This document shows, piece by piece, positions 22,998 to 41,818 of a DNA stretch of 64,000 nucleotides; position 1 is the stretch's first letter, and each line of letters starts with the position of its first letter. The notes below the pieces were generated by a model. That model searched no databases. It was not told the DNA's origin and saw nothing but the letters and a program-made list of their open reading frames with translations. A program made the position numbers and the translations under genes. The stretch is taken from positions 846,824 through 910,823 of the forward strand of contig JAQYWK010000002.1 in the NCBI GenBank assembly GCA_030145055.1, written 5' to 3'. The DNA comes from Desulfovibrio sp. Its GTDB lineage: Bacteria; Desulfobacterota; Desulfovibrionia; Desulfovibrionales; Desulfovibrionaceae.

Positions 22998-24269
22998 CTA
23001 TTCTGTATCGGTCAAATCTAGAAAAATTTGACCTTCTGGAACAGCCTGCGAAATCGTTTGGCGTCTGATCTCCCAACCACTTTCCCCCCGCTTCCGAAAA
23101 GGAATAACCTTACCACCATCTCCACTCTCACCAAGCATATCAAGAGCACAGCGGGCAGCCTCCTCATCGCCGTGCATATAGCGTAAGGCCATAGCCGGAA
23201 CTTTCCAGCCCATGACATCCATTAGAGAACGGAGATCAAGAGCCTTTGCCAATTCGGTGGCCACGGTATGTCGAATTGTGTGAAAACTGATACGGTCTAG
23301 TCTGTCTCGTCCTTCGTTGAACCCAAGATTTTTGGTTACACCGGCAAATGCCGTTGGTGCTTCATTATAAGGAAGCCCCCTGCTGTTCAAGAAAACCTTT
23401 TCTATAGGACCAGTGCGCTGCAGTTCGGATATAAGCTCTGCCAGCGGGCCAGAAATCGGAATACGCCTTGATTCAGCGTTCTTAGTCTTTTCAAAAATAA
23501 CGTGCGTAGAACTGACATTACGCCACTCAAGCTTAAAGGCTTCCCCTGCCCTACAGCCGGTCAAAAAAGCAAACTGAGTAATCATCCATGACGAACGATC
23601 TTGCTCTTCGAGAGTGGACATAATCTTTCTACGCTCAGCAGGAGTAATAATTCTCTGTCTGCGGTTATTCTTGGGTGCTGTTGCTCCGATGTCTTTTCCA
23701 GACGGTGGAGGTATGGTCACAACCTTTCGGCGTAACGCATGTTTTAAAACACGGCGCAATGAGCCGGTAATGTACTCTATAGATCTCTGAGACAGTTTTT
23801 TCTTACTCAAGGCAAGTACAAGATCATCCCACTGAGGAATCTGAATATCGCAGAGCGGCACATTTCCCAGCACAGGGTCAATATGGAGCCGCATATGAGA
23901 TTCTTCTTTATCCCAAGAACCGGGCTTGCTCTGCTTTGCAAAGGGCAAATAGTGCTGGTAATAATAATCGTGAAGAGAAATTTCTCGGGACTCTTGTTCG
24001 CGAAGTTCCCTGTTTTTGATTTTGCGAGCTTCTCCAAGCGTACGCGGCCCACTACCTGCCCTAGCTGCTCTTTTGAGATTTGCCAACTCTTCTGCAGCCT
24101 TTTCAGCAGTCCACCCTTCCGAAGCCCAGCCTAAAGCTTCCTCAGTTCGTTTACCATCCATCTGGAAACGGATAGAGAAATATCTATCTTTCTTCACACT
24201 ACCGTTTTTACGAGTTGGATGCTCCCGGTAACGAACTCCCGGATATGTCGAAGATTTCCACTTTATCAT
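22998..24269 (-). CDS. Tyrosine recombinase (phage/island integrase)
   Basis: This site-specific recombinase of about 423 residues is expected to integrate and excise DNA at a tRNA gene. The catalytic set is present: the first Arg in LTGCRAGEAFKLEW, His-x-x-Arg in FHTIRHTVATE, and the nucleophilic Tyr in ALRYMHGDEE. The N-terminal SSTYPGVRYREH region resembles an arm-binding domain. I favour the ATG at 24269; a GTG 45 bases upstream lies in a tandem repeat. The gene points away from a tRNA-Leu fragment 175 bp from its start, the normal position of an integrase next to its attachment site. Confidence 0.9.
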   Translation of the reverse strand: MIKWKSSTYPGVRYREHPTRKNGSVKKDRYFSIRFQMDGKRTEEALGWASEGWTAEKAAEELANLKRAARAGSGPRTLGEARKIKNRELREQESREISLHDYYYQHYLPFAKQSKPGSWDKEESHMRLHIDPVLGNVPLCDIQIPQWDDLVLALSKKKLSQRSIEYITGSLRRVLKHALRRKVVTIPPPSGKDIGATAPKNNRRQRIITPAERRKIMSTLEEQDRSSWMITQFAFLTGCRAGEAFKLEWRNVSSTHVIFEKTKNAESRRIPISGPLAELISELQRTGPIEKVFLNSRGLPYNEAPTAFAGVTKNLGFNEGRDRLDRISFHTIRHTVATELAKALDLRSLMDVMGWKVPAMALRYMHGDEEAARCALDMLGESGDGGKVIPFRKRGESGWEIRRQTISQAVPEGQIFLDLTDTE

Positions 24270-24293
24270 GAATTCACCATTCCTAATCAAATT

Positions 24294-24314
24294 CTGTCCC
24301 CACCCTGTCCCCAC
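24294..24314. repeat. Two 10-bp direct repeats upstream of the integrase
   Basis: CTGTCCCCAC occurs twice with an 11-base period directly upstream of the integrase start. It may bind the integrase or a regulator; this is a guess from position. Confidence 0.5.
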
Positions 24315-25334: not shown

Positions 25335-26957
25335 CTACAACAAGTAATTAACAGCCAGAAGGCCCGTTATAGACATCGTGATGGTGTAGGGCAATGCAAG
25401 CACTACCATCCGGCCGTAAGATAATCTTATAACCGGAGCAAGGGCCGAGGTTAAAAGGAAAAGGAAAGCAGCCTGACCGTTCGGAGTGGCAACGCTTGGG
25501 ATATTGGTTCCGGTGTTGATTGCCACTGCCAACTTGTCAAAATTATGCATAATATCAATGATCTTAGAAGCTGTTACTTGAGGCATGCCAGCAACAACAT
25601 CTGCACGAAGCAGATGAGGATCAGTCAGTTTTGCCATCAACGCCTGTCCACTGATACCTACGCCGGGCAAGGTGCCTAGCAAGTTTACGAAATGCAACTT
25701 GGTTTCAGAGATGTAAACTGTTGCAACAAAAACATTGTCTGATATTGCAGAAAGCAAACCGTTGGCAATATAGTAGGCTACAAGCTGTGTCTGCCCCTTA
25801 AGACTGAGAACAAATTCAATGATGGGATGAAATAGACCTTGATCATGAATCACTGCGACAATAGAGAAAAAGACAACTAAAAGGGCGGTAAATGGCAATG
25901 CTTCTTCAAAGGCTTTACCTAGTTGGTGTTCTTCAACAATACCGTTCATAGATGTGAGTATAATAATCACTGACAGACCTACAATTCCTACTGCCGCCAA
26001 ATGGAAAGCAAGTGCCGCAATCAACCATACCCCGGTCAAAGCTTGAACTAACAGTTTCGTTTTACCTTTCTGGCCCTGATTTTTTTCCATTTCTATGGCA
26101 GTTTCAAGTAGGTGGGAACGAATGTTACCCGGTAGTTTTGCACCGTATCCAAAAAGATGAAATTGCTCGACAGCCACGCAGGTCAATAGACCCACGGCAA
26201 GAACAGGCATTGTCACAGGCACCATTCTTAGAAAAAAGTCTGCAAAATGCCAGCCCATTTCGCTGGCTATAAGCAAGTTCTGAGGTTCACCGACGAGAGT
26301 GCATACTCCGCCTAGCGCAGTCCCAACCGCACCATGCATCATTAAGTTACGCAGAAAACCTCTAAATTCTTTAAGATCTTCACGATTTTTTTCAACAACA
26401 ACCTTATCGCAACATAGATCGTGGTCACAGTGCATGCTCTTACCAGACGCAAATCGATGGTAAACATTATAAAAACTGTAACCAACAGCAATCATAACAG
26501 CCGTTACAGTAAGTGCATCTAAAAATGCAGACAAAAATGCTCCAGCCAAACAAAATAGTAGAGAAATTATTATCTTAGACTGAACTCGAACAAGAATGCG
26601 CGTGAATGTGAATTGTAGAAAATCTTTCATGAAATAAATACCTGCTACCATAAAGATAAGTAGCAGAATTACTTCAAAGTTTTTAAGGGCTTCATGATAA
26701 ACTGTTTCTGGAGAAGTCAGACCTATAATTACAGCTTCAAATGCGAGAAGACCACCTGCCGGAAGGGGGTAACACTTCAAAGCCATTGCCAAAGCGAAAA
26801 TAAATTCAGCAATTAATGCCCACCCTGCGACAGTGGCTCCAAGTGTAAACATAAGACAGGGATTTAAAATTAAAAAAGCGACAATGACCATTTTATACCA
26901 TTTAGGGGCATTGCCGAGAAAGTTACTACCTAGCGATTGCAAAAAAGATGGCTGCAT
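25335..26957 (-). CDS. nhaB: Na+/H+ antiporter NhaB
   Basis: This 540-residue inner-membrane antiporter exchanges sodium for protons. The N-terminus ([14 protein letters not shown], then a series of hydrophobic segments) and the blocks [26 protein letters not shown], and [20 protein letters not shown] are strongly NhaB-like. The length slightly exceeds the E. coli protein (513), mostly through a His/Cys-bearing insertion near residues 173-185 ([10 protein letters not shown]). A ribosome site AAGGAGA precedes the ATG. A terminator separates it from the upstream permease, so it may have its own promoter. It fits a marine or sodium-rich habitat. Confidence 0.95.
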
Positions 26958-27117: not shown

Positions 27118-28917
27118 TTAATACAAAACCATCAAGGTAAAGATCATTACTCCCATGTAAAGTACGGTCATACCTGTACCTGCCCGGACATAGTCGATCG
27201 TTTTATAACCGCCTGGTCGCATAATTAGTGCGTTAACCTGATGGGTGGGCAACACGAATGTGTTAGATGCCGCAACAGCTACAGTCAGCGCCGCAATGCG
27301 TGGATCAACACCGGCATTCAAAGCCATATTCATGGCTAAAGGAACCAGCAATACTGTTGCTCCGACATTTGATGCAACCAAGGTGAAGAACGAGGTCAAT
27401 ACACCTATCACCGTCAGCAATACCACCGTCGAAGGATGGCCGAGCGCAGACATGATCGTGGCTGCAATATATTGTGCTGCCCCAGTGTTTTCAAACGCCA
27501 TTCCAAGCGGAATTAGTCCTCCAAGAAGAAAGACAGTCATCCAGTCAACAGACTGGTATGCTTCATCAATGCTTAGAACCTTGGTTAGAATCATGCCTAA
27601 AGCTCCCGCGAGTAAGGCGATGGAAAGCTGAATGTGCAGCGCAAGAATCAAGAACAAAGACACACCAAGCCACAGCAAGGCAAATTTAGCCTTATCAGTG
27701 CGCAGTATTTCTCCCTTTACTTCTTCTGTGAAGACAAAATCAGGTCTTTCTTTAAGTAAATGGAACATCTCCCAGCGTCCGTGGAGAAGAATAGCGTCTC
27801 CAGACTCAATCTTGAGATCACTTAGGCCGCTGATAAATAGTTTTTCACCACGAAATATTGCAAGCGGTGAAACTTGAAAGCGGTTACGTAATCGTATTTC
27901 CCCAAGAGTCTGACCAACAAGCTCGGAACGAGGAGTTACAATCCCCTCCATTATTCCGGCATTATTAGGAGAAAGCTCTTCTGCAAAAGAACTGAGTTCA
28001 CCTTGAAGTTCCCATCCGAAGTGTTCGGACATATGCTCAACAAACTCACGGTGACCGACTATAGCCAAATGATCACCTGGTTTGATAACTTCGGTAGCAT
28101 CAGGTGCAATCTTATGTGCTTTGCCACGATCTCTTGCAATGGCGACCACTGTTGAAAAGTAAATAGGGCGGAGTTCTAGGGTCTGCAAATCCTGATCACA
28201 CTCCCATGTCTCTGGAACATGCAGTTCAAACAAAGAACCAATGCCGCCATATGTGTCATTCAAAAGTTCCGACATAGGACCGGAGAATTCAGCTATATCC
28301 TTGCTGGGAAGAATGAATCTTCCAAAAAGCATAAAGTATATAAGAGCTGCTACCAGCAGTGCAATACCTATGGGGGTTACACCGAACATTCCGAAGGGTT
28401 CGTACTGTTTCCCGCCAACAATCATCAAATCGTTCAACAAAATCAGAGGACTTGATCCGACCAAAGTCAGACAGCCTCCGATAATTGCGCAGAACCCCAT
28501 GGGCATAAGTAATCTTCCAACCGGAACTCCGGTCTGATTACCAATGCGTTTAGCCGCAGGGAGAAACAGGGCCGCGGCCCCGATATTCTGCATGAATCCT
28601 GAAATGATCGCTACGGTACCTGCAATCAGCGTCATGATTCTGGTTTCACTTTTACCAGCAAATTTAAGGATAACTCGGGCCATAGAGTTCATAACACCGG
28701 TCTTATCCAGTCCGGCCCCGATGATAATAACGGCTATAATTGATACGACAGCATTACTGCTTAAGCCACTGATTGCCTGTTTAGGGGTAACCAATCCGAG
28801 CAAAGGAAGAAGTACCATCATGATGATACCAACTACATCCACACGGACCCATTCGAATATGAAGAGCAGTATTGCAAAAGCAAGAACTGCCATAACTAGA
28901 ATAATCTCTGGAGTCAT
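27118..28917 (-). CDS. SLC13/DASS-type permease with two TrkA-C domains
   Basis: This 599-residue membrane protein moves anions such as sulfate or di/tricarboxylates, driven by sodium or protons. Hydrophobic segments flank a cytoplasmic middle section (about 200-385) with two TrkA-C (RCK-C) regions, one ending KPGDHLAIVGH and the other ESGDAILLHG. The conserved transport loop appears as FMQNIGAAALFLP, and a second one as ASNVGATVLLVPLAM. In a sulfate reducer, sulfate is a plausible substrate, but this cannot be decided here. The gene lies 42 bp after the stress protein gene, and both probably share its sigma-54-like promoter. Confidence 0.88.
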   Translation of the reverse strand: MTPEIILVMAVLAFAILLFIFEWVRVDVVGIIMMVLLPLLGLVTPKQAISGLSSNAVVSIIAVIIIGAGLDKTGVMNSMARVILKFAGKSETRIMTLIAGTVAIISGFMQNIGAAALFLPAAKRIGNQTGVPVGRLLMPMGFCAIIGGCLTLVGSSPLILLNDLMIVGGKQYEPFGMFGVTPIGIALLVAALIYFMLFGRFILPSKDIAEFSGPMSELLNDTYGGIGSLFELHVPETWECDQDLQTLELRPIYFSTVVAIARDRGKAHKIAPDATEVIKPGDHLAIVGHREFVEHMSEHFGWELQGELSSFAEELSPNNAGIMEGIVTPRSELVGQTLGEIRLRNRFQVSPLAIFRGEKLFISGLSDLKIESGDAILLHGRWEMFHLLKERPDFVFTEEVKGEILRTDKAKFALLWLGVSLFLILALHIQLSIALLAGALGMILTKVLSIDEAYQSVDWMTVFLLGGLIPLGMAFENTGAAQYIAATIMSALGHPSTVVLLTVIGVLTSFFTLVASNVGATVLLVPLAMNMALNAGVDPRIAALTVAVAASNTFVLPTHQVNALIMRPGGYKTIDYVRAGTGMTVLYMGVMIFTLMVLY

Positions 28918-28959: not shown

Positions 28960-29568
28960 TTATTTTACCCGCAGCATCGCTCGAGTATATACGGGGATAG
29001 CCGTATTAGTTTTTCTATCTGCGACATCTTCCATTACATAGCGGTAGCCACAATCTTCACAATGGAGTTCTGCCACAACAGCGTCTTCTTTGCCGCTTTT
29101 AACGATATGTGCGAACAGGAGGCCGGCCTCTTTAGCTTGTCCTGAAAAATCAGCGATATTTTCTTCAGACTTATCGCAGAAATTTTTGAAATCTGAACCA
29201 TGTTCATCTAGGTTAAGCGCAACCAGACTGCTTTGCGTCTTAGCTGCCATTCCTATTGCGTAGCTTACGACGCTTCCTGAGAAAGCCGCGCCTTTGCTGA
29301 CGACAAGAATTTTTCCACCAGCGGTTGTTGTTTCTGAAAGATTCTTAACAAGCTCATCATTTACTTTCTGAGAAATTGGCGCTTTCTGGCTACCTAGCCG
29401 AAAACGGTTTAATAATGATTTCAAGAAAAGCCCCCTTTCGTTTTGGCCAGTTAATAACTGGTCCCGATTAATGGCCCATTTGCCAACGTTACAAGTATTG
29501 CATTGATTTTTGGCCTGGGTTGCATAATGTCGATCAAAGAAGCCAATAATGTACTGAACGGTAGCCAT
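28960..29568 (-). CDS. Universal-stress-like protein
   Basis: This 202-residue protein begins MATVQYIIGFFDRHYAT. The central and C-terminal region (KILVVSKGAAFSGSVVSYAIG, SLVALNLDEHG, VAELHCEDCGYRYVMEDVAD) looks like a single, diverged Usp domain with a nucleotide-type fold. Cysteines occur in pairs (CNTCNVGKW and CEDCGYR), which might bind a metal. The ATG at 29568 has GGAGG upstream; the longer frame has none. First gene of the unit with the SLC13-type permease. Its role may be to regulate transport, by analogy with stress domains attached to transporters. Confidence 0.65.
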   Translation of the reverse strand: MATVQYIIGFFDRHYATQAKNQCNTCNVGKWAINRDQLLTGQNERGLFLKSLLNRFRLGSQKAPISQKVNDELVKNLSETTTAGGKILVVSKGAAFSGSVVSYAIGMAAKTQSSLVALNLDEHGSDFKNFCDKSEENIADFSGQAKEAGLLFAHIVKSGKEDAVVAELHCEDCGYRYVMEDVADRKTNTAIPVYTRAMLRVK

Positions 29569-29608
29569 GGAACCTCCTCGTTTTTGTTTCCTCTCACTCC
29601 CCTTAAAG

Positions 29609-29624
29609 ATCAATAAGCATGCCA
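29609..29624 (-). promoter_or_regulatory. Sigma-54-like promoter of the stress/permease unit
   Basis: On the minus strand it reads TGGCATGCTTATTGAT. The -24 GG is perfect and the spacing is correct; the -12 element is TTGA instead of TTGC. It lies about 40 bases upstream of the ATG at 29568. Confidence 0.5.
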
Positions 29625-29698
29625 ATCAAATAGACACACTTAACTACTCGTAATTTCTGAATAAACATAAAACGGATCTATAATTCAGCGCTCGACCC

Positions 29699-29713
29699 GT
29701 TGCGTTATGCAAC
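29699..29713. promoter_or_regulatory. Palindrome upstream of the sigma-54-like promoter
   Basis: GTTGCGTTATGCAAC is a perfect 5+5 inverted repeat about 75-90 bases upstream of the -24 element, a normal distance for an activator site. Two further TGCAAC half sites occur at 29786 and 29964. The likely protein is the NtrC-type regulator at 32112-33458. Confidence 0.45.
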
Positions 29714-30009
29714 TCAGACAGCTCAAAACTTCAAGGAAAACCACTAATTGGAGCGGCACAGAGGGATTAATCTGATGTTTCACTTTGCAACGCCTTTACT
29801 CTCAAACCCGACATCAGTGTGATGTTATAAGTTTCTTAGATTTTTAATAGGGTCGTTATATTCCGCAGAACTAGCGACAATATGACGTTGTGCCTTTCCT
29901 CACAAAGTTTTAAGACATTTTTTTGCCCTTAAAACAATGAGCTAAAGCCCTGTTGTTTCAAAATGCAACATTAACAACGTAGACCATTGATGATAATAAC
30001 TGTCGTATC

Positions 30010-30063: not shown

Positions 30064-32115
30064 ATGCTAAGGTGGTTCAATAAAAAAAATGATGAAAGCC
30101 TAAATCTGGAAGCGAAAACTCCGGACGATAATGAAAGTAATTTACCTCAGCAAAGAAACGGAGCGCAAGAGCTTATCGACCGCGTCAATTCAGCCGAACT
30201 TCCCGACCACATAGTAAATACAACTCACGATGAATGCGAAAGACTGCTTAAGCTGGACAGCTCATCTCCTGAATTCGCTATTGGGCATAACTATCTTGAT
30301 TTCATACTATCTTTACCGTGGAACAAAACGACTAAAGACGATCTTGACCTCGAGAGGGCGAAAGAAGTGCTTGATGCACGCCATTACGGTTTAAACAACG
30401 TAAAGGAGAGAATTCTGGAATTTCTTGCTGTGAAAAACCTTCGCAGCAGAATCAGCCCCAGCTTAATTATTGCTGACGATGAAATCATCGCCAGAGAAAA
30501 TTTATCAATTATTTTTGAACACGAGGGGTTCGCAGTACGAACTGTTGCCAATGGACAGGAAGCTGTTGAGGCCATGGAAGATGAACCTGCGGATATCGTA
30601 ATAACCGATCTTAAGATGGATGTGATGGACGGTTTGGAACTTCTTCAAGAGGTACGTAGCCGCTGGCCCGATACAGGCATGATAATGCTCACTGGATATG
30701 CAACAGTGAAAACAGCTGTAACAGCCATGAAGAAAGGAGCCGATCAATATCTCGGTAAACCGGTGAATTTGACTCGCTTGCGTGAGCATGTTCAAGACTT
30801 GTTAGGTAAAAATCAACGTATCCAAGGATTACGCGGGCCTGTACTCTGCTTCAGCGGTCCTCCCGGAACAGGTAAAACATCAATTGGAAAGGCTATCGCC
30901 GAATCGATGGGACGTAAGTTTATCTGCATGTCTCTTGCCGGATTACGGGACGAAGCAGAACTGCGCGGACACCGCCGCACTTATGTAGGAGCCATGGCAG
31001 GAAGGATTTTGCAGGAAATCCAGAAATCGGGAGTGCGTAATCCAGTTATTATGCTGGATGAGATGGACAAGATCATTCAAAATTTTCAAGGTGATGCGAC
31101 TTCTGTACTGCTTGAAATTCTCGATCCGCAGCAAAACTCAGAGTTTGTAGACCAGTATCTGGGATTACCCTTTGATCTTTCGGGTGTACTTTTCATTGCC
31201 ACCGCAAACCTCATTGACCGCATACCAGTACCACTGCGAGACCGCATGGAAATGATCGAATTTTCAAGCTATACACTTACTGAAAAATCCAAAATAGCGA
31301 CAAACTACCTTATTCCTGAGCAATTGCTTCAGCACGGACTTGGAGTAAGGGAAATCACAGTGCAGCCCGAAGCTGTTAAGCATCTCATTATGGACTACAC
31401 CCGTGAACCGGGGTTACGCGGACTGGAAAAACAGATTGCATCTCTTTGCCGCAAGCTTGCGAGAAAAATTATAGCAAAAACAGATGGAAATAAAACATTC
31501 GTTGTAGAGCAAGAAAAGCTTGCAGAAATTATGGGGCCTCCCCCGCATTTCACAACGTCAGCTAGTGACACCTCAAAAGTGGGGTTGGCAACCGGACTGG
31601 TTTGGTCTGAAAACGGAGGAGAAATAATCTTTGTAGAAGCAGCAAAGATGTATGGTAATAAAAATCTCATTCTAACCGGATCTCTTGGTGATGTTCTTCA
31701 AGAATCTGCTCAGACAGCTTTAAGTTTCATACGTGCTAATGCAGAGAAGTTTGACTTATCACCTGATTTTTTTGAATCTTCAGACATTCATGTACATATT
31801 CCTGCTGGCTCTGTAACAAAAGAAGGCCCTTCCGCGGGAGTCACCATTGCTATTGCCATCCTTTCTCAGCTTACCGGACGCTCTGTGCATCAGAATATGG
31901 CTTTCAGCGGAGAAATATCACTACATGGAGATGTGCTGCCGGTCGGCGGGGTACGCGAAAAAATTATGGCTGCGTCAAGGTCGGGAATCCGCACCGTGGT
32001 TTTACCGGATAAATGTTCGCACGCTCTCCAGAGAATAGAACCGGAGGTCCTTGAAGGTATTGAAATCCGCCTTGTGAACAAATTAGAGGAAGCCGTAGAA
32101 CTGGCCCTTCTTTAA
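30064..32115 (+). CDS. lon: Lon-type AAA+ protease with an inserted receiver domain
   Basis: This 683-residue protein lacks the usual Lon N-terminal substrate domain. It starts with the Lon helical region (LSLPWNKTTKDDLDLERAKE). At the linker before the ATPase it carries a full response-regulator receiver (about 133-252) with D138/D139, phosphoacceptor D182 in VITDLKMDVMDG and lysine K232. The AAA+ module follows (Walker A GPPGTGKTS at 265, Walker B VIMLDEMDK), then the protease domain with Ser590 (GPSAGVT) and Lys633, 43 residues apart as in classical Lon. All catalytic residues are present. The start at 30064 has AAGGA upstream and follows the promoter. It is convergent with the NtrC-type gene and overlaps it by four bases. 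Phosphorylation-controlled proteolysis is the likely function. Confidence 0.93.
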   Translation: MLRWFNKKNDESLNLEAKTPDDNESNLPQQRNGAQELIDRVNSAELPDHIVNTTHDECERLLKLDSSSPEFAIGHNYLDFILSLPWNKTTKDDLDLERAKEVLDARHYGLNNVKERILEFLAVKNLRSRISPSLIIADDEIIARENLSIIFEHEGFAVRTVANGQEAVEAMEDEPADIVITDLKMDVMDGLELLQEVRSRWPDTGMIMLTGYATVKTAVTAMKKGADQYLGKPVNLTRLREHVQDLLGKNQRIQGLRGPVLCFSGPPGTGKTSIGKAIAESMGRKFICMSLAGLRDEAELRGHRRTYVGAMAGRILQEIQKSGVRNPVIMLDEMDKIIQNFQGDATSVLLEILDPQQNSEFVDQYLGLPFDLSGVLFIATANLIDRIPVPLRDRMEMIEFSSYTLTEKSKIATNYLIPEQLLQHGLGVREITVQPEAVKHLIMDYTREPGLRGLEKQIASLCRKLARKIIAKTDGNKTFVVEQEKLAEIMGPPPHFTTSASDTSKVGLATGLVWSENGGEIIFVEAAKMYGNKNLILTGSLGDVLQESAQTALSFIRANAEKFDLSPDFFESSDIHVHIPAGSVTKEGPSAGVTIAIAILSQLTGRSVHQNMAFSGEISLHGDVLPVGGVREKIMAASRSGIRTVVLPDKCSHALQRIEPEVLEGIEIRLVNKLEEAVELALL

Positions 32116-33458
32116 ACTTTATCCTTTTCCAAACCGAGACGTTTCATTTTACGCCAGAGGGAAACTCTATCTATACCGAGGATTTTGGCTGCCTGCGTCT
32201 TATTTCCACCAGTAGCAAGCAAAACTTTTTCTATATGGTGGGATTCAACTTCCTCCAAAGTCTGTAACGGATTGTCATGAGGAATATCTCGTATCTCCCG
32301 TGGCAGAAGGTCCGGGGTAAACACGGTCCCCTTTGACAGGGCCAAAGCTCTTTGAGCTATATTTTCCAATTCCCGCACATTTCCCGGAAATGGATAATTC
32401 ATTAATGTGTCTAACGTTTCTTGAGAAATAGTATTAATGGCCTGAACTGGAGTCCTGTGTTTTTCAAGGAAGTGCCCTATCAACACAGGAATATCTTCCC
32501 GATGCTCGCGCAAGGGTGGCGACAAAAGAGTTACCACATTCAACCTATAAAAAAGATCCTGCCTGAAAGTACCGTTTTCCACATTCTTTTTGAGGTCACA
32601 GTTGGTCGCCGCGAGAACCCTGATATCAACTGGAATTTCCTTAGTTCCCCCAACACGTAGAAACGTGCGTTCTTGGAGCACCCGCAAAAGTTTCACCTGC
32701 ATGTTAAGTGGAAGTTCACTCATTTCATCAAAAAAGACTGTCCCGCCGTTTGCAACCTCAAGTATACCTTTCTGCCCACGCTGAGCTCCAGTAAAGGCTT
32801 CCCGTTCATGACCGAACAATTCTTTATCCATTAGCTCTGCGGTGAATGTTCCGCAGTTTATAGCCATAAATCTTTCGTCTGAACGGGGGCTAAGCATATG
32901 GATGCCCCGAGCGATAAGTTCCTTACCAGTACCAGTTTCTCCCTGAATGAGAACATTGCAGTTCATATTTGCAAGCTGCTTGATGGTGCTTTTCAATTTA
33001 AGGATTTCATCACTTTGCCCAACCAGAGGGAAATCCTGTTTTCCTTGTGCCAGCACCTGCCTGAGACGCAGGACCTCTACCGATAGCGCTCGGCACTCCA
33101 GAGCCTTGCGAACCTGTGCACGCAATTCATCTAAATTGAACGGTTTTGCAATATAAGAGTGCGCCCCGTGTTGCATTGCAGACACAGCAGTAGTCACTGT
33201 TGCATGGCCGGTAATAACTATTACCTGTGTTGAAGGTTCCATCTCTTTAATGTGCTCAAGCAACTCAATTCCGTTCATACCCGGAAGCATGAGATCGGTA
33301 AGCACCAATTCAAACTCAGCTTTTTCAAATTGCTGTAAAGCTTCTGACCCTGAGCCGACCGCAACAGTAGAATACCCTTCCTGATTTAAAACATGGGTAA
33401 GATTATCCCGTGCGATTTCTTCGTCATCAACAATAAGTATTTTAATGTTGCTGATCAT
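32112..33458 (-). CDS. NtrC-type response regulator, sigma-54 activator
   Basis: This 448-residue activator has a receiver (D55 in VLTDLMLPG), a sigma-54-interacting AAA+ domain (Walker A GETGTGKE, Walker B as GGTVFFDE) and a C-terminal Fis-type helix-turn-helix (NKTQAAKILGIDRVSLWRKM). The sigma-54 contact loop, normally GAFTGA, reads EAFTGA here. It overlaps the kinase gene by ATGA, so the two form one pair. Likely targets are the sigma-54-like promoter at 29609-29624 and palindromes nearby. Confidence 0.92.
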   Translation of the reverse strand: MISNIKILIVDDEEIARDNLTHVLNQEGYSTVAVGSGSEALQQFEKAEFELVLTDLMLPGMNGIELLEHIKEMEPSTQVIVITGHATVTTAVSAMQHGAHSYIAKPFNLDELRAQVRKALECRALSVEVLRLRQVLAQGKQDFPLVGQSDEILKLKSTIKQLANMNCNVLIQGETGTGKELIARGIHMLSPRSDERFMAINCGTFTAELMDKELFGHEREAFTGAQRGQKGILEVANGGTVFFDEMSELPLNMQVKLLRVLQERTFLRVGGTKEIPVDIRVLAATNCDLKKNVENGTFRQDLFYRLNVVTLLSPPLREHREDIPVLIGHFLEKHRTPVQAINTISQETLDTLMNYPFPGNVRELENIAQRALALSKGTVFTPDLLPREIRDIPHDNPLQTLEEVESHHIEKVLLATGGNKTQAAKILGIDRVSLWRKMKRLGLEKDKV

Positions 33459-34870
33459 ATATTTACACCATCTTCCAGAGGGATAGTAATATAGAAAGTG
33501 GTTCCTTTACCCTCCCGGCTTTCGGTCCGGATATGGCCTTGATGCTTTTCAATAATTCCATAAACTATATATAGTCCCAAGCCGGTGCCTTGCCCGACTT
33601 CTTTTGTAGAAAAAAACGGATCGAAAATTCTTTCCAGCGTGTCTTGAGACATGCCTTCGCCTGAGTCGGATACTGTAATAATTGCGTTGTCCTCTTTAGT
33701 AGAAGCTGCAATGTGAATAGTGCCCTGCCTCGGCTCAATAGCCTGAATAGCGTTGATAAGAAGATTGATAAATGCCTCCTGTATCTTACGCCTATCAACC
33801 CGAACAATAATATGTTCCGAGATTTCTTTTGTAAGGTAAATATTAGATGGAACCTGACTTGAAACAAGGCTTATTGCTGACCGTACAATCTCATCGAGTT
33901 CAATTGGTCCCGGCGAATACTCACGCTCGCGAGAAAACTCAAGAAGCCCTTTTACAATATCGCGCGAACGCAGTGTCTCCTGCATAATATTATCCATCAT
34001 TTTATCGGCAAGTTCATCCTTCCCTTTTGTCCCTTCCATCAAAATCTGGCAGGATGTCGAGATATTATTAAGTGGATTGTTTAACTGGTGGGCTATGCCT
34101 GAAGCTAGGGTTCCTATTGATGACAACTTTTGAGCCTGTACCAATTGGCGACGTCTTTTTCTCAATTGTTCAACCATAGAATTTAGTGCCGCAAATACCT
34201 GCTGAATTTCATCATGAAAATTTTTGATAGGCAACGCCATAAAAGTTCCTAGCGATATTCGTTTTGTAGCTTCCTGCACTTGCCTCAGAGGTTTCAAGAT
34301 ACTGGAGGAAACAAACACCACAAGAATAAAGACCACTACAGCAATTCCAATCATGGAAAAAGTTAAATTAGAGCGTAGATTCTGATTGATAGAAAGAATA
34401 TTTTTTCTCTCAAACCGGGAAATTGCTTTTGAATCCTCAACAAGTGCCTGACCTACTTCTCGAATATTACTGTTTCGAGTTCCAACAAGAATAGGGCTCT
34501 TTTCCCCTGACAATTCAAGTTTCTGTAATAATTTTCTATAAAGGTCCAAATTGATTTTCAGACTTGTCCCGGTTTGCTTTACTTCAATATTAACGAAATC
34601 CTGCATCAGCGCCGACAGTAACTTGTCGGTCTGATTTAGGTATTCAAACCCCTGAGTAAGCAGAGCCTTATCCTGATAAAGTAAAACGTTCTTTTCCGTT
34701 CGACGAATTTCCAAGATAAGATTGCTAAGGTCGTCGACTCGCTCAATAAGCATAACCTCTCGTTCAAGTTGCAAGGTGTTCATATATGACAACATCCCTA
34801 TGCAACCAAAACAGATGGAAAAGATAATAATACCTAAAATGATTTTTTGGCGAATATTTAATTTGGGCAT
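33455..34870 (-). CDS. Membrane histidine kinase with HAMP domain
   Basis: This 471-residue sensor kinase has a first membrane helix at about 9-29, a periplasmic helical section to about 170, a second helix (about 172-194) and a HAMP domain. A dimerisation domain has the phosphorylated histidine near residue 261 in GIAHQLNNPLN, and the ATPase domain has NLLINAIQ, DSGEGM and GTGLGLYI. The periplasmic part resembles four-helix-bundle sensors; the signal is unknown. It is upstream in a two-gene unit with the NtrC-type regulator, and it may also phosphorylate the Lon receiver. Confidence 0.92.
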   Translation of the reverse strand: MPKLNIRQKIILGIIIFSICFGCIGMLSYMNTLQLEREVMLIERVDDLSNLILEIRRTEKNVLLYQDKALLTQGFEYLNQTDKLLSALMQDFVNIEVKQTGTSLKINLDLYRKLLQKLELSGEKSPILVGTRNSNIREVGQALVEDSKAISRFERKNILSINQNLRSNLTFSMIGIAVVVFILVVFVSSSILKPLRQVQEATKRISLGTFMALPIKNFHDEIQQVFAALNSMVEQLRKRRRQLVQAQKLSSIGTLASGIAHQLNNPLNNISTSCQILMEGTKGKDELADKMMDNIMQETLRSRDIVKGLLEFSREREYSPGPIELDEIVRSAISLVSSQVPSNIYLTKEISEHIIVRVDRRKIQEAFINLLINAIQAIEPRQGTIHIAASTKEDNAIITVSDSGEGMSQDTLERIFDPFFSTKEVGQGTGLGLYIVYGIIEKHQGHIRTESREGKGTTFYITIPLEDGVNI

Positions 34871-40465: not shown

Positions 40466-41818
40466 ATGGACAAAACAGAACATTTCGGACTTAATTTCGA
40501 AACCTTTGCAAGGCTCATCGACAATCTTCACGATGAGGTCATTATCTACGATAACAACTATAGAATGCTATACGTAAACAAAGCCTGCGAAAGACATTAC
40601 GGATTCTCACAACAGGAAATGATCAGGATGCCTTTCTGGGATATAATCCAGAAACACAATTCATGGGACCGGCCCATTCTACCCCTTGTTTATGAAAAAA
40701 AAAGTCCAGCAAAACAGGTACAAAAAACATACCTAGGACTTGAAGTCTTAACCATTGCAATCCCGATGTTAGATGAGAAGCAAAATGTTGAGCATGTCCT
40801 TTTAAGTATACGGGACAACTTCCATGAAGGAAGAATCCTGCACCCCGAAAAGCTTATTCCCGAACATGAAGATTCTATATATGCTAGACCAGAAGATCTA
40901 ATCTACCGCAGCAAGATCATGGAACAAACAGTCGATGCCGCCCGTAAAGTGGGAACTATCTCAGCTCCATGTCTACTACTGGGGGAATCTGGTTGCGGTA
41001 AGAGTCTGCTAGCAAAGTATATCCACTCCAATGGCAGTAGAGCCGATAAACCTTTTGTGGTGGTCAACTGTGCCGCCATCCCTCAGGAACTTTTTGAATC
41101 AGAGCTTTTCGGACATGTGAAAGGAGCTTTCTCTGGCGCAACCCATGCTCGCGGTGGACTCGTTGCCAAAGCCGAAGGCGGAACGCTATTTTTAGATGAA
41201 ATTTCTGAACTGCCTTTGCCCATGCAGGCCAAACTACTCTACGCAGTACAAGAACTTGAGTACCGTCCGGTCGGCAGTTCTACCAGTGTAAAAGCAGACA
41301 TACGCATTCTTACCGCCTCGAATCGCAATATGGACCGCATGGTTGAGTCCGGAGCTTTCCGGCAAGATCTATTTTTCCGCTTGAACGTGTTTGATATTGT
41401 CATACCTCCTTTACGTGAACGCCCGGAAGATCTCGTCCCTCTGCTCCATTTTTTCCTTAATCGTTATGGAAAAGCCCACGGAAAAGGAAAACGCCTTTCA
41501 TCTAATGCGCAAAAACTACTCTGCCAATATTCATGGCCCGGAAACATCCGCGAACTAGCCCACCTTATTGAGCGACTGGTGGTCACAGTTGAAGAAGAGA
41601 CCATCCGCGTAGTCCATCTTCCCTTGTCACTTTATAAAACAACCGGCAATAGAACTTCTCCCATCTTATCAGCAGATTCACTGGATGAAGCGATCGAGGG
41701 AGTAGAACGCCAACTCATCATTGATGCTCTTGCTGAACACGGTAGCAGCAGAAAAGTAGCCTCAGCCCTTAAAATTAGCCAATCTCGAGCTTCGCGGTTA
41801 ATTAGAAAATACACTTAG
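40466..41818 (+). CDS. PAS-sigma-54 activator with Fis-type DNA-binding domain
   Basis: This 450-residue regulator has a PAS domain (about 10-115, [19 protein letters not shown]), a sigma-54 AAA+ domain (Walker A GESGCGKS, contact loop [16 protein letters not shown]) and a C-terminal helix-turn-helix ([18 protein letters not shown]). There is no receiver, so a ligand or redox state sensed by PAS probably controls it. It ends just before three palindromes and a consensus sigma-54 promoter, so it probably activates the molybdenum hydroxylase accessory operon rather than the nag genes. Confidence 0.9.

Follow-up and report, generated by a model that had tools for sequence, protein, structure and literature searches.

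Proteolysis can be controlled through phosphorylation of a receiver, as in CpdR and RssB, which are separate receiver adaptor proteins for ClpXP. The LonA proteases (peptidase family S16) have a helical bundle, an AAA+ core, a lid and a Ser-Lys protease domain in common with the protein studied here, called REC-Lon, but REC-Lon has no N-terminal substrate domain and carries a receiver (REC) inserted ahead of Walker A. A system of this kind is in print as the 'three-component system' DVU3303-DVU3304-DVU3305 of Desulfovibrio vulgaris Hildenborough, together with the idea of a phospho-switch (Rajeev 2011, PMC3333781). According to these accounts, a response regulator with a Lon protease in the same protein is encoded next to a kinase and an NtrC-type regulator, and the NtrC-type regulator governs an operon nearby that codes for UspA-type and membrane proteins (PMC3333781, PMC4641369, PMC10102598). 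A DVU3305 binding site is reported to be conserved beside DVU3303 orthologues (Rajeev et al., PMC3333781). A search of the open-access literature, with most subscription journals outside its reach, found no biochemical test of a REC-Lon.

In this study, a stretch of 64 kb, referred to as the window, was analysed around a REC-Lon gene with the following features.

30064..32115, + strand: REC-Lon gene, 683 aa (ORF and domain search)
30163..30381, + strand: Lon helical segment (3-helix bundle), residues 34-106
30394..30450, + strand: helix 111-129 (VKERILEFLAV), final Lon element ahead of the insertion
30460..30819, + strand: inserted receiver (REC), residues 133-252
30475-30480, + strand: receiver acid pair D138/D139
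30607-30609, + strand: receiver phospho-acceptor D182
30691-30693, + strand: receiver T210
30757-30759, + strand: receiver K232
30838..31266, + strand: AAA+ core
30856-30882, + strand: Walker A GPPGTGKTS
31045-31062, + strand: Walker B VIMLDE
31267..31533, + strand: AAA+ lid
31561..32112, + strand: Lon protease domain
31831-31833 and 31960-31962, + strand: catalytic S590 and K633

An earlier note on this DNA had read a complete receiver, with D138/D139, D182 and K232, between the Lon helical region and Walker A, an intact Ser-Lys dyad and a missing Lon N-terminal substrate domain, and each of these readings was borne out. The domain search confirmed the residues and the fold of the receiver, which has the acid pair, the acceptor Asp, the Thr/Ser and the Lys, and placed it just ahead of the Walker A strand. 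The dyad is S590/K633 with a spacing of 43, both residues being invariant in 55 of 55 REC-Lons, and the Lon_C domain of the window protein gave an E-value of 1.6e-68. Walker A, Walker B and the Lon lid are present in the AAA+ module, and the match to TIGR00763 lies above its cut-off. Identity to solved LonA chains is about 42% over about 520 residues (VIA-align). The N-terminal substrate-binding domain PF02190 was found in none of the 55 REC-Lons and in all six ordinary Lons searched. REC-Lon is a Lon-family protease without the full LonA domain set, and the nested fusion is real and conserved. The family matches of CpdR and RssB cover only the REC part of the protein and fall below their cut-offs. 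A receiver with control of proteolysis by phosphorylation, which for REC-Lon is proposed, would be common to all three, whereas CpdR and RssB are separate proteins and the REC-Lon receiver is part of the protease motor. A chance fusion or a misread frame was considered and is ruled out by the domain matches and the residue conservation.

All 55 divergent REC-Lons compared keep D138, D139, D182 and K232 unchanged, and the insertion point, inside the AAA+ motor, is the same in the 27 REC-Lons aligned there. These two observations bear on whether the receiver could have a structural role or serve the kinase as a phosphate sink, with proteolysis controlled by expression only. An operator upstream of the gene, described below, does suggest transcriptional control; however, the four invariant residues would be needless in a purely structural domain, and a sink would not need its constant place inside the motor, so that this explanation appears very improbable. 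Two of the REC-Lon alignments held 25 and 15 of the 27 REC-Lons, with L031 left out (its region occurs again as L135); a third held the window protein and 54 of 55 frames, with L084 (start cut) and further near relatives left out.

The earlier note had also suggested a search for this architecture across genomes, and the outcome is that of a conserved kind of protein. REC-Lon was found in 48 of 395 sampled genomes of the window's phylum, own genome included, when matches extending into residues 1-100 were counted (62 genomes had a match of any extent at E 1e-150). A sample of Nitrospirota, the phylum of G453, gave REC-Lon in 24 of its 198 genomes and two further matches covering Lon only. Among close relatives it was present in 28 of 58, again with the own genome included. 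In a set of 369 gammaproteobacterial genomes none was found at E 1e-150; this is no proof of absence, since the set had no positive control and regulator orthologues, most with the Lon, are reported from Thioalkalivibrio and Dechloromonas (PMC3333781). A named collection comprised the best 80 of 583 relatives, picked by REC similarity, and its proportions are therefore not prevalence. In a tree of the AAA+ and protease parts (71 of 104 non-redundant rows, from 133), one branch (100/98) split 36 REC-Lons from 35 ordinary Lons, which places REC-Lon by its sequence in a separate lineage; as the root is not fixed, one origin of REC-Lon is consistent with the tree but not proven. REC-Lon as a replacement of the housekeeping Lon was rejected, as the own genome has two further Lons, C1:945047 and C3:73315 (L002, L003), both with the N-domain.

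The genes surrounding REC-Lon in the window are the following.

32112..33458, - strand: partner response regulator, NtrC-type, with REC, AAA+ (Sigma54_activat) and Fis-type HTH
33455..34870, - strand: partner sensor histidine kinase (HAMP, HisKA, HATPase_c)
28960..29625, - strand: divergent UspA-like gene (named by eye and from the published DVU3303 neighbourhood)
27118..28917, - strand: anion transporter of CitMHS/SLC13 type carrying TrkA_C domains; frequently linked to REC-Lon
25335..26957, - strand: NhaB-type Na+/H+ antiporter, linked in close relatives

The regulator gene is convergent with REC-Lon with a 4-nt overlap, and the kinase gene comes next. Kinase and regulator were both present at 25 of 27 REC-Lon loci of relatives and at 32 of 48 loci of the named collection (from the best 80 of 583 relatives); at the remaining loci of the same 48 the kinase stood alone in three and neither was found in 13, several of the contigs being short. 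Overall the pair flanks REC-Lon in 57 of 75 loci (48 of them from the best 80 of 583), with variable gene order and orientation. The SLC13/TrkA_C anion transporter occurred at 20 of the 27 loci and 16 of the 48 (from the best 80 of 583). With the same thresholds, kinase, regulator and transporter were each found at 0 of 40 ordinary lon loci, which came from 21 genomes (20 with REC-Lon relatives and the own genome) and extended about 8 kb to each side, a few being cut at contig ends. Of 15 genomes with an orthologous regulator and no REC-Lon beside it, 12 had no REC-Lon at E 1e-120 (genome completeness not given), and so the kinase-regulator pair exists without the protease. The stretches L083, L091 and L116, titled Gammaproteobacteria, hold the same pair, an SLC13 transporter and an operator upstream of the kinase; their genomes lack REC-Lon at E 1e-120.

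In both the window and the D. vulgaris system, as published, receiver and Lon lie in one protein, next to a kinase and a regulator of NtrC type. REC-Lon of the window runs convergently to the regulator and kinase genes, whereas DVU3303-3305 are given as one operon. As for the other neighbours, the window has an anion transporter, and its UspA-like gene, without a Pfam match in the window protein, has its likely start at 29568. Because the gene neighbourhoods are alike, the window gene is taken as a member of the DVU3303 system, with DVU3303 taken to be its putative orthologue, and thus of a kind already mentioned in a 2011 publication.

Some further features of the neighbourhood were observed. 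The UspA-like protein (28960-29625, - strand) has two CxxC motifs, and its gene shares the operator-bearing gap with REC-Lon. The H-box of the kinase (33455-34870, - strand) reads HQLNNP; its phospho-acceptor His is followed by Gln instead of the usual Glu or Asp. A phage-type integrase (22998-24314, - strand) adjoins the NhaB/transporter cluster, and no tRNA gene was found within the window.

The relation between the Lon receiver and the receiver of the partner regulator was assessed at Spo0F positions 14, 15, 18, 21 and 22, which we take to be the kinase-docking residues of receivers. In Lon and partner receivers these positions mostly read I-A-N-H/Y/I-V/I. Asn at 18 together with Ala, Ser or Thr at 15 was shared by 75 of the 76 Lon receivers and by 53 of the 58 partner receivers (both from loci drawn partly from the best 80 of 583 relatives), and in 13 of 15 orthologous regulators without REC-Lon in the stretch. 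Among other receivers, one of 15 of the NtrC type had the combination, and none of 21 from the own genome did. Partner receivers were counted one per stretch, so that stretches with two regulators (e.g. L045) kept one; the 21 control receivers came from 20 stretches of about 90 REC matches, at the more similar end of the list. When five other positions were drawn at random, 10 of 100000 draws gave a mean excess identity as high as that of the five docking positions, of which position 22 alone adds little (0.18 vs 0.09). Overall, the Lon receiver is on average 46% identical to its partner and 34% to control receivers (38 pairs).

A tree of 152 receivers, left from 185 after removal of near-identical ones, placed the Lon receivers (58), the partner receivers (44) and the orthologous receivers (15) together in one group (91/89); a single further NtrC receiver joined them, and none of the remaining own-genome receivers did. 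A single gain of the Lon receivers did not emerge from this tree, which has few columns: two changes were counted, with one gain in 16% of bootstrap trees. Locus-by-locus covariation of the docking residues was not seen either, as a Lon receiver was identical to its own partner at 2.97 of five positions and to the partners of other loci at 3.02, and 7179 of 10000 pairing shuffles scored as high. The claim of a shared kinase therefore rests on the contrast with other receivers, and as the docking signature is family-wide, common descent could explain part of it. The two receivers are kin in sequence, with a kinase-facing surface that appears to have been kept. Because they are related and the docking residues occur in none of the 21 other own-genome receivers, one kinase probably serves both. 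The kinase at 33455-34870, already named in the earlier note as the candidate phosphodonor of REC-Lon, gains support from this kinship and these residues, and the NtrC-type regulator at 32112-33458 is added as its other likely target; like the operators described below, it had no mention in the earlier note. Relative to the consulted parts of the published D. vulgaris accounts, the place of the receiver in the AAA+ motor, the kinship of the receivers and the docking residues are new.

Upstream of REC-Lon, the 438-nt gap to the UspA-like gene holds three copies of the palindrome TGTTGC-N5-GCAACA.

29698..29714, no strand assigned: operator copy CGTTGCGTTATGCAACT, 2 mismatches
29776..29792, no strand assigned: operator copy TGTTTCACTTTGCAACG, 2 mismatches
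29954..29970, no strand assigned: operator copy TGTTTCAAAATGCAACA, 1 mismatch

They are three of the eight operator matches in the 64-kb window, against a shuffle mean of 3.2. With at most two mismatches, the palindrome was found within 450 nt upstream of REC-Lon in 57 of 75 loci (partly from the best 80 of 583), 11 of them exact, 31 with one mismatch and 15 with two, against 2.5 expected from shuffled sequence; the 76th REC-Lon locus, with too short an upstream stretch, was left out. Upstream of ordinary lon it was found at 0 of 40 loci. Where the kinase-regulator pair occurs without REC-Lon, 13 of 15 stretches had a site with at most one mismatch, which in 12 of them was no more than about 260 nt away from the kinase start, and stretches with other NtrC regulators had a site in 1 of 8. 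In REC-Lon loci (partly from the best 80 of 583), sites with at most two mismatches were also counted around gene starts: 15 of 58 kinase frames, 8 of 35 transporter genes and all 19 UspA-like genes had one. The UspA-like group overlaps in DNA with the REC-Lon operator count, as the two genes are divergent in many loci. Of 2000 background pieces, 34 had a site. The kinase and regulator genes of the window have no operator of their own (at most two mismatches) upstream of the kinase start. In the own genome, exact GTTGC-N5-GCAAC occurred in six places, one being the REC-Lon locus, and in none for the reversed control; with one mismatch allowed the numbers were 12 and 4, near chance. The simplest reading is that the palindrome is the putative binding site of the regulator and REC-Lon a conserved target; given Rajeev et al. 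(PMC3333781), the motif is not claimed as new.

How the regulator would act on this target was approached through its AAA+ domain and the promoter. The window regulator (32112-33458, - strand) reads EAFTGA in place of GAFTGA, presumably the sigma-54 contact loop, and the same is found in the regulator of the genus. The first Gly was absent (E, D or S) in 30 of 58 partner regulators of REC-Lon (partly from the best 80 of 583), and one such case was found among 29 regulators without REC-Lon, 6 of the 29 being unmatched by the pattern. The window regulator may perhaps no longer activate sigma-54 promoters. Nothing strong resembling such a promoter was found in the window gap before REC-Lon. In the 75 upstream regions (partly from the best 80 of 583), 23 reached a sigma-54 score of at least 13 against 13.0 in shuffles, and 7 a score of at least 14 against 4.0. 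As the scores are barely above shuffles, sigma-54 activation is not claimed despite the Sigma54_activat domain. A further sigma-54-activator-type protein, with a PAS domain, is encoded at 40466-41818 (+ strand), adjoining NagA and PTS genes.

The reading preferred here, and considered fairly probable, is that a branched two-component system has REC-Lon as its second, proteolytic output, and that in it one kinase controls the protease both via transcription and via phosphorylation of D182. The membrane kinase (33455-34870) would phosphorylate two related receivers, that of the regulator and, at D182, that of Lon. The phosphorylated NtrC-type regulator would probably bind TGTTGC-N5-GCAACA before REC-Lon and before the stress and transport neighbours. 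Phosphorylation of the Lon receiver would alter the coupling of ATP hydrolysis or the assembly of the ring, and so switch degradation; these are the most likely effects because the receiver sits in the N-linker of the AAA+ motor and the N-domain is gone. The switch of proteolysis by phosphorylation that the earlier note predicted is plausible and better supported than before. We infer the activating sign and the substrates.

Receivers act both ways, by activation or inhibition, and the sequence leaves the sign unfixed; phosphorylation could thus silence the protease, with lower kinase output releasing it. In D. vulgaris, however, kinase and protease mutants are reported to behave alike (PMC10102598), which fits activation better and makes the opposite sign unlikely, with the caveat of polarity. 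The same 2023 transposon study describes DVU3303-3305 as all detrimental in chlorate, with pairwise cofitness >0.9, and the anion transporter DVU3299 as important there (PMC10102598); the cofitness may be polar, as the three genes are listed as one operon.

Receivers commonly pair, and the two receivers are related in the REC tree, so the Lon receiver might instead be a docking site that delivers the regulator to the protease by pairing with its receiver, in a negative feedback for which REC-Lon would, as it likely is, have to be a target of the regulator. The loss of a destroyer should look opposite to the loss of what it destroys, yet the fitness effects reported for loss of protease, kinase and regulator in D. 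vulgaris have the same sign, with cofitness >0.9 (PMC10102598). Unless these effects are polar, this speaks against such feedback, to which a low probability is given.

Under the preferred reading of a branched system, the chlorate results hold a puzzle. If the regulator simply activated a protective transporter, its mutant should be sensitive to chlorate, yet it is reported to do better. Two explanations offer themselves: the regulator is a repressor, or a protective factor is degraded by the protease. The EAFTGA loop, the first Gly missing in 30 of 58 regulators and the lack of a standout sigma-54 promoter are in line with a repressing regulator. More tentatively, a Lon may on a single occasion have captured the receiver of its partner regulator into its AAA+ motor, so that the kinase directly gates the ATPase and also sets the amount of protease, and in D. 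vulgaris the protease may remove a protective factor, e.g. the anion transporter. Such removal would leave protease, kinase and regulator mutants better off in chlorate and a transporter mutant worse off.

If true, REC-Lon would be an AAA+ protease with a signal switch inside its motor, driven by the commonest signalling chemistry of bacteria, and one kinase would feed a transcriptional and a proteolytic arm. The protein can be purified, which makes it suited to asking how a receiver might gate an AAA+ ring, and it marks a conserved pathway of regulated proteolysis in sulfate reducers and Nitrospirota.
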